Positions 19,217 to 27,184 of a DNA stretch of 64,000 nt are shown here, piece after piece. The translations under genes were made by a program, and so were the position numbers. Within the stretch, counting starts at the first letter, position 1, and every line of letters starts with the position of its first letter. A model generated the notes under the pieces. It saw nothing but the letters and a program-made list of their open reading frames with translations. It was not told the origin of the DNA and did no database searches. This stretch comes from Geothrix sp. 21YS21S-4. GTDB lineage: Bacteria; Acidobacteriota; Holophagae; Holophagales; Holophagaceae. The stretch is taken from the NCBI RefSeq assembly GCF_030845995.1, contig NZ_CP132719.1, positions 1,240,001 to 1,304,000 on the forward strand, given 5' to 3'.

Positions 19217-19468
19217 ATGCGCATCGCCACCCTCGCAGCCGCTGCCGCGCTGCTCGTCGCCCTTCCCGCCCAGGCCAAGATGCCGTGGGTGAAGAAGTCC
19301 CAGGAACTCGGTTTCACCGACGTGAAGGATTGCAAGGCCTGTCATGTGGGCACGCCGAAGAAGGGTGGGGAATTCACCGCCCGCGGCCAGTTCCTGGAGG
19401 AGACCAAGGCCAAGAAGAAGGCCGCCGAGGTCGATCTCGCTTGGCTGAAGGACTACAAGGGCAAGTGA
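19217..19468 (+). CDS. Small secreted monohaem c-type cytochrome-like protein (paralogue 1)
   Basis: 83 residues with a signal peptide ending PAQA (residue 20), then a 63-residue mature part with one CxxCH haem site (CKACH) preceded by MPWVKKSQELGFTDVKD. A lysine-rich helix closes it (FLEETKAKKKAAEVDLAWLK). No distal Met ligand is obvious. It is clearly paralogous to the gene at 21613-21870: the frame PWVKK-(x)n-LG-(x)n-CKxCH-(x)n-KAxKKAAE-D-AW-K is shared. GGAGG lies 5 bp before the ATG. A terminator separates it from the large cytochrome. Likely a periplasmic electron carrier; that is inferred. Confidence 0.85.
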   Translation: MRIATLAAAAALLVALPAQAKMPWVKKSQELGFTDVKDCKACHVGTPKKGGEFTARGQFLEETKAKKKAAEVDLAWLKDYKGK

Positions 19469-19484
19469 TCGGACTTTTCACCGG

Positions 19485-19514
19485 CAACCGGGCGGATTTC
19501 CGCCCGGTTGTTTT
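19485..19514 (+). terminator. Rho-independent terminator
   Basis: A GC-rich inverted repeat (caaccgggcgga at 19485-19496, tccgcccggttg at 19499-19510) followed by tttt. It ends the first monohaem gene. Confidence 0.8.
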
Positions 19515-19574
19515 GTACGTCCGCCCCGGAGATGTCGGTGCGGCGCTTTTCTTCCCGCACGAATCCGTACAAAT

Positions 19575-19600
19575 GTCACAACTCCCGTGACGCAGGTCAT
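19575..19600. promoter_or_regulatory. Candidate Crp/Fnr-family operator upstream of the multihaem cytochrome
   Basis: GTGAC-GCAG-GTCAT (19587-19600) is a near-palindrome centred about 65 bp before the cytochrome start. It matches the TTGAC-N4-GTCAA style of Fnr/Dnr sites apart from one mismatch at each end. A second dyad, GTCAC-N7-GTGAC (19575-19591), overlaps it. Redox- or oxygen-dependent control is an inference. Confidence 0.4.
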
Positions 19601-19658
19601 CTGCCCCTAGCATCCGCCCGAAGAATCAGGCTAGGGTTAGAAGACTTGAGAGGTGGCT

Positions 19659-21524
19659 ATGCGTCGGGTGCTCGCTGGAATCTTCGCCCTCGCCCTCGGG
19701 GCCGCGCCCCCGTCCGCGAAGGATTGCGTGGGCTGCCACGACGTGGACTTGGCCAAGTTCGCGACCACCAAGCACGGCAGCATGGCCTGCACCGACTGTC
19801 ACAGCAGCATCACCAAGCTGCCCCACGCCGACAAGCCGGTGCCCGTGAAGTGCGCCACGTGCCACGAGGACCAGGTCAAGGCCTACGGCAAGAGCATCCA
19901 TGGCATCGCCAAGCAGAACGGCATGTCCGACGCCGCGACCTGCGTCTCCTGCCACGGCCCCGCGCACAACATCGTGGGCAGCAGCGAGCCCGGCTCCAAG
20001 GTGAACAAGAAGAACCTGGCGGACACCTGCGGCGCCTGCCACTCGAATCCCGAGTTCCTTGCCAAGCACCAGATTCCCTTCGCCAAGCCGGTGGAGGCCT
20101 ATCGCCTGAGCATCCACGGGCGCGAAGTGGCGAAGGGCAACACCGCCGCCGCTTCCTGCTCCGATTGCCATGGCAGCCATGACATCCTGCCCTCCTCCAA
20201 CCCCGACGCGAAGGTGAACCGCGCGCGCGTGGCCGAGACCTGCGGCATGTGCCACAGCGACATCCAGGCCGTCTACGCCGACAGCGTCCATGGCCTCGCG
20301 GTGAAGCGCGGCTCCAAGGATTCGCCCACCTGCACCGGCTGCCACGGCGAGCACAACATCCTGGCGCCCAAGGAAGCGGGCTCGCTCGTGAACCCCGCCC
20401 GCGTGTCCACCGTCACCTGCGGCCGCTGCCACGGCGACGAGCGGCTGGATTCCCGCTACGGCTTCGGCGACAAGGTCCCCGCCTTCCAGGACAGCTTCCA
20501 CGGCCTGGCCATCCGGGGCGGACAGAAGACCGCCGCCAACTGCGCCTCCTGCCACGGCGTGCACAACATCCTTCCCTCCGCCGACATCCGCTCCACCGTC
20601 AATCCCGCCAACCTCAAGCAGACCTGCGGCCAGTGCCACCCCGGCGTGAGCGACAAGATCACCCGCGGCAAGGTCCACGTGGGCATGGCGAGCAGCGTCG
20701 AGCACATCTCCGTCAAGTGGATCCGCTGGGCCTACTACGCCCTCATTCCCATGACCATCGGCTTCATGCTGTTCCACAACGGCCTCGACTACGTCGCCAA
20801 GCTCCGCCGCCACAAGCCGCACCACGGGACCGGCGAGCAGCTTCCCCGCATGAACAAGATGTTCCGCATCACCCACGGGATGGTGATGGTCAGCTTCATC
20901 CTCCTGGTCATCACCGGCTTCGCCCTCAAGTTCCCCGAGGCGGGCTGGGTGAAGGTCCTCGGCATGAGCGGCGCGGGCACCGTCCGCGGCGTCATCCACC
21001 GCGTCGCCGCGATCGTCATGCTCGCCGCCACCGGCCTCCACATCGTCCACCTCGCCCTGGTGAAGAAGGACCGCGTCATCCTCAAGGAACTGCTGCCTGG
21101 CCTGCAGGACGCCAAGGACATCGCCAACGTCATCCGCTACAACCTGGGCCTCACGTCCAAGCGGCCGACCTTCGGGGTGTTCGGCTACGCCGAGAAGATG
21201 GAGTACTGGGCCTTCATGTGGGGCACCGTGGTGATGGCCGTGACCGGCATCCTCCTCTGGGCCCAGAACTGGAGCCTGCGCGTCTTCCCGATCTGGGTGC
21301 TCGACGCCGCCACCGCCGCCCACTGGTATGAAGCGATCCTGGCCAGCCTCTCCATCCTCGTGTGGCACTGGTATCTGGTGATCTTCGACCCCGAGGTCTA
21401 TCCGATGGATCTCGCCTGGCTCACCGGCAAGGCCTCCGCGGACCACCTGCGCGAAACGCGGCCGGAGTACTACGCGGCCCTGATGAAGAAGCACAAGCCC
21501 TCAGGCGGCGACCACGCCGAATAG
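19659..21524 (+). CDS. Inner-membrane b/c-type cytochrome: 11-haem c domain fused to cytochrome b
   Basis: 621 residues. After a signal sequence (1-20), a periplasmic domain (about 20-345) carries eleven CxxCH motifs: CVGCH, CTDCH, CATCH, CVSCH, CGACH, CSDCH, CGMCH, CTGCH, CGRCH, CASCH and CGQCH. The C-terminal 270 residues hold five hydrophobic helices with histidines typical of hydrogenase/formate-dehydrogenase-type cytochrome b (FRITHGMVMVSF, VIHRVAAIVMLAATGLHIVH, HWYLVIFDPEVYP). The architecture resembles CbcL-type quinol oxidoreductases that pass electrons from menaquinol to periplasmic cytochromes. The ATG at 19659 has GAGAGG just upstream; a GTG two codons earlier (19653) is possible. 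A terminator follows. Confidence 0.9.
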   Translation: MRRVLAGIFALALGAAPPSAKDCVGCHDVDLAKFATTKHGSMACTDCHSSITKLPHADKPVPVKCATCHEDQVKAYGKSIHGIAKQNGMSDAATCVSCHGPAHNIVGSSEPGSKVNKKNLADTCGACHSNPEFLAKHQIPFAKPVEAYRLSIHGREVAKGNTAAASCSDCHGSHDILPSSNPDAKVNRARVAETCGMCHSDIQAVYADSVHGLAVKRGSKDSPTCTGCHGEHNILAPKEAGSLVNPARVSTVTCGRCHGDERLDSRYGFGDKVPAFQDSFHGLAIRGGQKTAANCASCHGVHNILPSADIRSTVNPANLKQTCGQCHPGVSDKITRGKVHVGMASSVEHISVKWIRWAYYALIPMTIGFMLFHNGLDYVAKLRRHKPHHGTGEQLPRMNKMFRITHGMVMVSFILLVITGFALKFPEAGWVKVLGMSGAGTVRGVIHRVAAIVMLAATGLHIVHLALVKKDRVILKELLPGLQDAKDIANVIRYNLGLTSKRPTFGVFGYAEKMEYWAFMWGTVVMAVTGILLWAQNWSLRVFPIWVLDAATAAHWYEAILASLSILVWHWYLVIFDPEVYPMDLAWLTGKASADHLRETRPEYYAALMKKHKPSGGDHAE

Positions 21525-21536
21525 CCTGCACGGTTG

Positions 21537-21563
21537 AGGGGCGCCTTCGGGCGCCCCTTTTTT
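21537..21563 (+). terminator. Rho-independent terminator
   Basis: A 9-bp perfect stem (aggggcgcc at 21537-21545, ggcgcccct at 21550-21558) with a ttcg tetraloop and a run of six T. It ends the multihaem cytochrome gene. Confidence 0.92.
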
Positions 21564-21612
21564 CGGTCCGGACCTTGAGCCGGATCTTCCCCCCAAAGAG
21601 TAAGGAGTCAAC

Positions 21613-21870
21613 ATGCGCCGCATCACCCTGCTCACCGCCGCCCTCGCCCTGGCCGTCGCTCCCGTCGCCAGCGCCAAGGTGCCCTGGGTCAAGAAGGCCA
21701 AGGATCTGGGCATCCCCCAGATCGAGAACTGCAAGTCCTGCCACGGCGACAAGAACACCAAGGACAGCCTGAACGACGCCGGCAAGTGGATGATGGAGCA
21801 GAAGGCCGCGAAGAAGGCCGCCGAGTGCGACGTGGCCTGGATGAAGGAATACTACGCGAAGAAGAAGTAG
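21613..21870 (+). CDS. Small secreted monohaem c-type cytochrome-like protein (paralogue 2)
   Basis: 85 residues with a signal peptide ending APVASA (residue 21), a single CKSCH haem site in IPQIENCKSCHGDKN, and a basic helical C-terminus (MMEQKAAKKAAECDVAWMKE) containing an extra cysteine. It is paralogous to 19217-19468. AAGGAG lies 7 bp before the ATG. It has its own strong bidirectional terminator. Two paralogues flanking one quinol-oxidoreductase-like cytochrome suggest interchangeable electron acceptors for it. Confidence 0.86.
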   Translation: MRRITLLTAALALAVAPVASAKVPWVKKAKDLGIPQIENCKSCHGDKNTKDSLNDAGKWMMEQKAAKKAAECDVAWMKEYYAKKK

Positions 21871-21880
21871 GCTTCGCACG

Positions 21881-21919
21881 CACGAAAAAGCGGCGCCGAA
21901 AGGGCGCCGCTTTTTCGTG
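21881..21919. terminator. Bidirectional intrinsic terminator
   Basis: A 17-bp perfect stem (21881-21897 with 21903-21919) containing an A run on one side and a T run on the other, with a 5-base loop. It serves the convergent monohaem gene and the phosphosugar mutase. Confidence 0.93.
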
Positions 21920-25093: not shown

Positions 25094-27184
25094 TCAGCTC
25101 GCGCTCGGAACGGCGTCGGCGGTGCCGCCCACCACGAGGGCGGGGCACAGGATCGTGGGGAGGGCGTCGCTCACGGGGACGCCCTGGCCGTCCTTCCCGC
25201 AGGTGCCGATGTCGAAGAAGTGGAGGTCGCTTCCGATGCGCGTGATGCTCTTCAGCACGTCGGGGCCGCAGCCGCTCAGGGTGGCGTTCTTCACGGGATA
25301 CTTGGGCTCGCCGTTCTCCACCCAGTAGCCCTCGGTCACCTGGAACACGAAATTGCCCGTCACCGTGTCCACTTGGCCGCCCCCCATGTGCTTGACGAGG
25401 AGGCCGTGGTCCAGGTCGCGGAGGATGGTCTCGGGCGCCTCGTTTCCGGCGGCCAGGAAGGTGTTGCGCATCCGGGGGATGGGCAGGTTGCGGTAGCCCT
25501 CCCGCCGGCCGTTGCCCGTGGGTTCCATTCCCATCTTCCGGGAGGTCTTGCGGGACTGGAGGAAGGCCTTGAGGACGCCGTTCTCGATGAGGACCACCCG
25601 GGTGGCCGGATTCCCCTCGTCGTCCACGGCCTGGCTGCCCCGCTTGTGGGGCAGGGTGCCGTCGTCGATGATCGTGACGCTATCGGCGGCGACCTTCTCC
25701 CCGAGCTTGCCCGCGAAGGCGCTCATGCCCGCGAGGACGAGGTCAGCCTCCAGGGCGTGGCCGCAGGCCTCGTGGACCATGGTGCCGCCCGCGCTGCTGC
25801 TGAGGACCACGGGGAACGTGCCCGCCGGCGCAGGCCGCGCGTCCAGCGCCTGGACGGCGAGCCGCGCCGCTTCGCGCACGGTGTCCGCCACGGCGGTTTC
25901 GGTGAACAGTTCGAAGCCCCGGGTCTCGCCCAGCGCCCGGTAGCCGGTCTGGAGCTGGGTTCCGTCGCCCACAGTGATGTTGGCGCGGAGGACAACCTGG
26001 GTCCGGTGGTCCTCGGTGAGGCGGGTGGACCAGGTGTCCTCTCCCCGCTCCGCGCTGGCGATCCACACCCGCTGGGTGCTGTCGCTGTAACCCACGGAGG
26101 CCTGCTTGAGCGAGCCGGTTCGAAGGGCTTCGGTCTCGGTCCGCGCGAGGGCTTCCGCCCGGCGCACCAGGGCCACCTTTTCCGCAAGGGGCACCGTGCC
26201 GGGCTCCCGCTCCACGGGGCTCGGCGTGGGATGGATCTCCACCGCGAGAGCCGGCACCAGCGCCGCGTTGCCGGTGCCCGGCGCGGCGAGGGTGCGGGCG
26301 GCGTCCGTCAGTTCGTCGAAGGTGGGCGCGATCAGATCCGCGAACCGGGTGGTGTCGCCGTCGACCAGGCGAAGGCTGGCGCCGAAGGTCTCCGAGGCGA
26401 GCACGTCCTCCATCCGGCCGTCGTCCATCGCCAGGCCGTGGGCGCGGCGGCGCTCGACGAACGCCTCGCCGTAGTCGCCGCCGCGGCTGAGGAGAAGGGT
26501 GAGGACGTCGCGCAGCTGGTCGGCGCTGAAGGGTGCGGGCATCGGGTCTCTCCAGGTCCGCCCTCGGCGGAGCCGCCAGTTTGCCAGAAGGGATGCCTCC
26601 CCTTCCGCCAGGATTCCTTCCAGGGCCCGGCCATCATTGACGATCACGAGATCGGCATGCAGCGCCCGCTCGGAAGAGGTCGCCTGGGCGCGGATCCGCG
26701 CCAGGGCGGCCTCCCGGGGCAGCCCGTCCCGCGCTTCCAGGCGGGCCAGGCGCAGTTCCTCGGGGGCGTCCACGGTCCAGAAGGCGTCGAAATGGTGGGT
26801 CCGGCCGCGCTCCACCCACAGCGCCGCGTCCAGCACTGCGCCCCGCGTGGTCGACGGCAGCGCCGCGAGGCGCTCGCCGAGCAGCGCCTCGATCCGGGGA
26901 TGGAGAATCGCGTTCAGTCGCGCGCGGGCCCCCGCGTCCCCGAACACCCGCGCCGCCATCCAGGGCCGATCCAGTCCGCCGTCCGGGCCAAGGCAGTCCG
27001 GTCCGAAGGCTGCCACCACCGCCACCAAGCCCTCGGTCCCCGGCAGCACCGCCTCCCGCGCCAGAGCATCCGCGTCGATCACCGCCCAGCCCCGTTCCGC
27101 CATCCGCCCCGCCACGAAACTCTTCCCCGCCGCGATGCCGCCGCTGAGGCCGAGGAGGGGGAAGGGCGCGCCGGGCAATTTCAT
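25094..27184 (-). CDS. Dephospho-CoA kinase fused in frame to TldD metalloprotease
   Basis: One open frame of 696 codons. Residues 1-214 are CoaE, the last CoA-biosynthesis kinase: P-loop GGIAAGKS at 15-22, DADALAREA, and ILHPRIEALLGERL. Residues 215-696 are a full-length TldD with HEACGH zinc motif at 471-476 and a C-terminal LSGCGPDVLKS. There is no stop between them. An internal ATG at 26542 (residue 215, MPAPFSADQL) has GGAGAG 7 bp upstream, so free TldD of 482 residues may also be made. In most bacteria the two genes are separate. TldD/PmbA are encoded back to back here, and the CoaE part would ride along. Confidence 0.85.
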   Translation of the reverse strand: MKLPGAPFPLLGLSGGIAAGKSFVAGRMAERGWAVIDADALAREAVLPGTEGLVAVVAAFGPDCLGPDGGLDRPWMAARVFGDAGARARLNAILHPRIEALLGERLAALPSTTRGAVLDAALWVERGRTHHFDAFWTVDAPEELRLARLEARDGLPREAALARIRAQATSSERALHADLVIVNDGRALEGILAEGEASLLANWRLRRGRTWRDPMPAPFSADQLRDVLTLLLSRGGDYGEAFVERRRAHGLAMDDGRMEDVLASETFGASLRLVDGDTTRFADLIAPTFDELTDAARTLAAPGTGNAALVPALAVEIHPTPSPVEREPGTVPLAEKVALVRRAEALARTETEALRTGSLKQASVGYSDSTQRVWIASAERGEDTWSTRLTEDHRTQVVLRANITVGDGTQLQTGYRALGETRGFELFTETAVADTVREAARLAVQALDARPAPAGTFPVVLSSSAGGTMVHEACGHALEADLVLAGMSAFAGKLGEKVAADSVTIIDDGTLPHKRGSQAVDDEGNPATRVVLIENGVLKAFLQSRKTSRKMGMEPTGNGRREGYRNLPIPRMRNTFLAAGNEAPETILRDLDHGLLVKHMGGGQVDTVTGNFVFQVTEGYWVENGEPKYPVKNATLSGCGPDVLKSITRIGSDLHFFDIGTCGKDGQGVPVSDALPTILCPALVVGGTADAVPSAS

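Follow-up and report, generated by a model that had tools for sequence, protein, structure and literature searches.

How do electrons leave the quinone pool in the Acidobacteriota? This step is far less worked out there than in Geobacter or Shewanella. A locus in the complete 3.08 Mb genome of Geothrix sp. 21YS21S-4, from a genus of soils and sediments, supplies a defined candidate quinol oxidase, which occurs and is lost together with surface cytochromes, and an unnamed family of small cytochromes. The locus lies in the window analysed here, a stretch of 64,000 nucleotides to which all positions below refer unless otherwise marked. An initial annotation described it as an independent module of three genes, in which a quinol oxidase of the CbcL type, used for extracellular electron transfer, is bracketed by two alternative monohaem carriers. 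The position of the trio (19217–21870, all on the plus strand) is correct, and so is most of what was said about its proteins; the picture of an independent, conserved module is not. The reading favoured here, which is probable, is that the large protein (bc1) sits in the inner membrane and acts as a menaquinol oxidoreductase of the CbcL/MtoC/MtrH kind, feeding exchangeable small carriers and, from there, an extracellular route.

The locus and its arrangement across Geothrix

The features of the locus are as follows:

19217–19468, plus strand: upstream monohaem protein (P0002), 83 aa, with signal peptide and CKACH, Lys-rich
about 19484–19511, plus strand: hairpin with T-rich tail, terminator-like, 3' of P0002 (z −3.9 versus shuffles)
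19659–21524, plus strand: bc1 (P0001), fused 11-haem c/di-haem b cytochrome, 621 aa, ATG at 19659
19725–20639, plus strand: haem domain of bc1 (residues 23–327), eleven CxxCH by motif count
20706–21386, plus strand: b domain of bc1 (residues 350–576), five transmembrane (TM) helices, from the model and the FdnI alignment
about 21536–21559, plus strand: intrinsic terminator 3' of bc1, hairpin with T-run (z −3.7 versus shuffles)
21613–21870, plus strand: downstream monohaem protein (P0003), 85 aa, with signal peptide and CKSCH
about 21881–21919, no strand assigned: hairpin with A-run and T-run 3' of P0003 (z −7.1 versus shuffles)

The last of these hairpins is probably a bidirectional terminator, common to P0003 and the convergent phosphoglucomutase gene. 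A strong hairpin with a T-run follows each gene, as expected from the earlier claim of separate terminators; in a generic consensus scan, which missed the hairpin after P0002, terminator-like sites are no more frequent than by chance. With separate terminators, operon structure alone gives no co-expression of bc1 and the monohaem proteins. A scan of the locus for sigma-70-type promoters returned none.

Throughout the genus the locus is syntenic, flanked by genes for methylmalonyl-CoA mutase and phosphoglucomutase, so that the gene arrangement is not due to chance. The usual order is zero to three monohaem genes, bc1 (orthologues 66–87% identical), a second cytochrome gene (bc2), and the gene for a small dihaem protein. 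The bc2 protein is another 11-haem b/c cytochrome, about 31% identical to bc1 and present in most Geothrix genomes. A b/c protein with 19 haems, related to bc2, adjoins bc1 homologues in other phyla, and the tandem therefore looks old. The usual order is also the ancestral one, and bc2 has been lost in the clade to which the present genome belongs. It is missing from the locus here and in the seven genomes nearest in the bc1 tree (G002, G033, G062, G024, G020, G029 and G061); together these form one clade with moderate support (81/93), which fits a single loss. A few more distant Geothrix genomes also have no bc2 at the locus, and in Geothrix sp. 21YS21S-4 the gene is found nowhere in the genome. 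The trio is thus not fixed across the clade, as bc2 intervenes in most genomes and the number of upstream monohaem genes varies.

The fused b/c cytochrome

A single polypeptide does join an 11-haem domain to a five-helix cytochrome b: exactly 11 CxxCH motifs are present, and five TM helices are modelled (residues 350–384, 400–424, 440–467, 510–534 and 545–576; mean pLDDT 89). Across 46 aligned relatives of many phyla, each haem that is present retains its motif histidine. The haem domain has exactly eleven further conserved histidines (39, 56, 81, 103, 153, 174, 211, 232, 281, 302 and 340), so all eleven c haems can be bis-His, and this ligation is predicted for each of them.

Towards the C terminus, bc1 matches prokaryotic cytochrome b561/FdnI, with Ni_hydr_CYTB at 397–579. 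When the bc1 model was searched against the PDB, only one entry matched at E<0.001, namely 1kqf_C, the FdnI chain of formate dehydrogenase N from E. coli, with a TM score of 0.82 over the target. Conserved histidines in the TM helices are 373, 406, 447, 461, 555 and 570; among these, 406, 447, 555 and 570 are invariant in the 46 sequences and align with FdnI His18, His57, His155 and His169. The two proteins thus have in common a b domain of four helices and its four His ligands. They differ in that FdnI has no c haems, while bc1 has an extra N-terminal helix as well as His373 and His461, and no formate dehydrogenase catalytic subunits are encoded beside it; its neighbours are the mutase, the small cytochromes and phosphoglucomutase. 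The model for formate dehydrogenase gamma subunits (TIGR01583) scores 56.1 bits against a cut-off of 115.85. His373 in TM1 and His461 in TM3 occur in 44/46 and 42/46 sequences, respectively, and both lie towards the cytoplasmic side, judged from helix order; they may belong to a quinone site or to a third b haem.

Cytochromes of the CbcL/MtoC/MtrH family have 3–23 CxxCH motifs, 416–1034 residues and mostly six, sometimes five TM helices, and their genes are often next to c-cytochrome genes (PMC6295460). bc1 shows the corresponding features, namely N-terminal CxxCH repeats and a C-terminal HydC/FdnI-like b domain in one polypeptide, and five modelled TM helices with invariant histidines that align with the haem b ligands of FdnI. 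The CbcL-type logic proposed earlier is therefore upheld by the fused multihaem domain and the dihaem b domain with all four FdnI ligands. CbcL of Geobacter sulfurreducens contains nine bis-His haems; it forms a redox complex with PpcA, a small cytochrome of the periplasm to which it is proposed to donate electrons (PMC9129911). Going by published descriptions of CbcL, bc1 resembles it in the fusion of multihaem c and b domains, in the predicted bis-His ligation of all periplasmic haems, in the c-cytochrome genes nearby, and in its proposed partner, a small carrier in the periplasm. The differences are 11 haems versus nine, five modelled TM helices versus six, mono- and dihaem proteins that would replace the triheme PpcA, and the presence of bc2 in tandem in most Geothrix genomes.

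This protein type is common, since a scan of bacterial and archaeal genomes gave at least 568 confirmed relatives in many phyla. Among the matches listed, the named members of the locus family are Geothrix campi, G. fuzhouensis and Geothrix sp. SG200. In 23 of 80 bc1-type loci from several phyla (80 of the at least 568 relatives), a NapC/ImcH-like gene is found within the flanks of up to 6 kb, so these two types of quinol oxidase are often neighbours. One genus (g23) has a shorter relative with nine CxxCH motifs, the number found in CbcL (L216 8864–10555; L221 8987–10684). A free-standing pentahaem protein in relatives (L062 8823–9377; G002:C1:843459) shares 57% identity with the N-terminal haem region of bc1; no such homologue was found in the genome of Geothrix sp. 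21YS21S-4.

The small cytochromes and the downstream slot

P0002 and P0003 were assigned to one family, and this holds: they are 48% identical, and each has a (M/V)PWVKK start, a single CxxCH and a C-terminal half rich in Lys. They are the only two members in the genome. Mature P0002 has a pI of about 9.5, and the monohaem and dihaem families are both basic (pI about 9.3–9.7). The monohaem family, which is undescribed, occurs in eight genera of the Holophagaceae and was not found in the two further families of the class covered by the search; its members are an unusual and exchangeable set of small cytochromes beside a widespread and known type of quinol oxidoreductase.

Pfam and NCBIfam return nothing for P0002 and only sub-threshold matches for P0003, and a monohaem model (mean pLDDT 80) finds no fold match in the PDB. 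All 72 non-redundant homologues, a set selected for carrying CxxCH, have the motif. Outside it, no His or Met is conserved in these 72 sequences, and the conserved residues are Lys, Asp and Trp. With neither a conserved distal Met or His nor a fold match, the proteins fall outside the class I monohaem cytochromes c. PpcA-type triheme cytochromes c7 are likewise small, Lys-rich and periplasmic; they have three bis-His haems, whereas the monohaem proteins have a single CxxCH without a conserved distal ligand and score at best 15.7 with PF14522 (cytochrome c7; cut-off 24.8). In the dihaem family, too, no non-motif His is conserved, and just one Met is invariant.

Upstream of bc1, P0002 orthologues (56–89% identical) are found in most Geothrix genomes. 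The downstream slot is different: of about 40 Geothrix genomes, only three (this genome, G000, together with G009 and G067) have a monohaem gene in it, with a dihaem gene in the others, which is at odds with an independent, conserved trio. Even the near relatives G002, G033 and G062 have the dihaem protein in this slot. The DNA of P0003 is 93.4% identical to its counterpart in G067, against 80.9% for the flanking bc1 and 78.8% for phosphoglucomutase; strong codon conservation could contribute to this high value. The excess over the flanks, together with the dihaem gene in the closest relatives, suggests an exchange through recombination. Resolution in the mutase tree is too low to put a date on the transfer. 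The signal peptide of P0003 is like that of the G002 dihaem protein from the same slot in 21 of 22 residues, and a strict signal-peptide chimera is plausible, although the start MRR.TL, which occurs in other monohaem proteins too, weakens this case. A homologue of the dihaem protein is encoded in Geothrix sp. 21YS21S-4 as well, unlinked to this locus (C1:988229–988504; L186 8229–8504).

In the monohaem tree, in which the proteins are short and many forks unresolved, one clade unites most monohaem genes of other genera with those upstream of bc1 in Geothrix, P0002 included. P0003 is placed outside it (99/98 support); with its two counterparts it is nearest to monohaem proteins of another genus (g25). 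By this phylogeny, P0002 and P0003 are deep paralogues that came to share one locus. A recent local duplication around bc1 would agree with the presence of one family on both sides at 48% identity; it is rejected by the tree, runs against the G067 comparison and the dihaem genes of G002, G033 and G062, and is left with almost no probability. The NapC/ImcH-linked monohaem proteins of G001, G011 and G021 also fall outside the main upstream-gene clade.

Monohaem genes adjoin NapC/ImcH-like genes in three lineages (L093–L095; L198/L200; L207) and lie at unlinked sites in several genera. In L207 (9379–12445), from another genus, a six-haem NapC/ImcH-like gene is bracketed by two monohaem genes. Cytochromes of the ImcH/NapC type are, like bc1, proposed quinol oxidases; they differ in lacking a b domain, and their membrane part is unrelated. 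As monohaem genes thus stand beside two unrelated types of quinol oxidase, a shared partner is the best explanation. The proteins might instead be five-coordinate or Lys-ligated sensors or binders of NO, CO or O2, or haem buffers, kept near cytochrome genes by chance. The motif His as the only conserved His or Met, the conserved Lys, Trp and Asp, the missing fold match and the free-standing copies all agree with such a role; the repeated adjacency to both oxidase types and the apparent interchange with the dihaem protein fit a carrier better, and a sensor or buffer role appears unlikely. A more far-reaching proposal, offered tentatively, is that the Holophagaceae use monohaem proteins in which neither His nor Met is the sixth haem ligand (the position being taken by Lys or the N-terminal amine, or left open) as plug-in carriers for two unrelated quinol oxidases, and that mono- and dihaem carriers have been swapped at one slot by recombination, partly between species.

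The proposed electron route and its alternatives

The link to extracellular electron transfer draws on 48 good Holophagaceae genomes. Genes for MtrC-like decahaem cytochromes are present in 42/42 genomes with a bc1-type gene, which at the threshold used includes shorter nine-haem relatives in some genera, and are absent from five of the six genomes without one; an ImcH-like gene is absent from all six. For two of these losses, congeneric genomes retain bc1, ImcH-like and MtrC-like genes (G074 beside G073; G079 beside G078, G080 and G082). This joint presence and loss agrees with the earlier suggestion and ties bc1 to extracellular electron transfer as support rather than proof, because shared loss of respiration as a whole in reduced genomes (g16) would partly produce the same pattern. 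The monohaem proteins are not obligatory partners of bc1, since three nearly complete genomes (G019, G029 and G066) have bc1 and no monohaem gene; the trio is therefore not obligatory either. G074 and G096 have a monohaem gene while bc1, ImcH-like and MtrC-like genes are all absent.

The sequences themselves show the domain make-up, the haem ligands, the synteny, the exchange of small-cytochrome genes and the co-occurrence. The route we infer, including its direction, partner contacts and extracellular acceptor, would begin at the FdnI-like b domain of bc1, where menaquinol would be oxidised. Electrons would cross two b haems to the periplasmic side, pass along the eleven c haems and probably be handed to small haem proteins. 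In this genome the small basic periplasmic carriers would be the dihaem protein encoded elsewhere and the pair of monohaem proteins, each made from its own transcript. From these, electrons would reach the outer-surface MtrC/OmcA-like decahaem lipoproteins, of which the genome has two, or other periplasmic acceptors. The carriers would be the exchangeable part, with zero to three monohaem proteins upstream and a dihaem or monohaem protein downstream depending on lineage. Monohaem proteins may also serve the second type of quinol oxidase, NapC/ImcH-like, of which this genome has one.

bc1 may instead mainly feed periplasmic reductases (nitrite, peroxide or fumarate-type), with the small cytochromes as general periplasmic carriers. 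The spread of the bc1 family over many phyla, the NrfHA-like pair and further multihaem genes in the genome, and the monohaem genes of genomes without genes for extracellular electron transfer are compatible with this; the NrfA-like gene, however, already has its own adjoining NrfH-like partner, and bc1 is present or lost jointly with the MtrC-like surface cytochromes. Such a main role seems improbable. Still less credible is a bc1 working in reverse as an MtoC-like quinone reductase, carrying electrons from outside to the quinone pool. No sequence feature of CbcL, MtrH and MtoC tells the direction (PMC6295460), which leaves room for it. Against it, the Geothrix loci read have no additional mtoA-like multihaem gene beside bc1. 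Geothrix isolates, moreover, are known as Fe(III) reducers, in keeping with the outward route favoured here.

Elsewhere in the window, at 25094–27184 on the minus strand, one open frame appears, judged by eye, to join a dephospho-CoA kinase to a TldD-like protease behind it; in relatives, frames of this type are of similar length (e.g. 694–735 aa).
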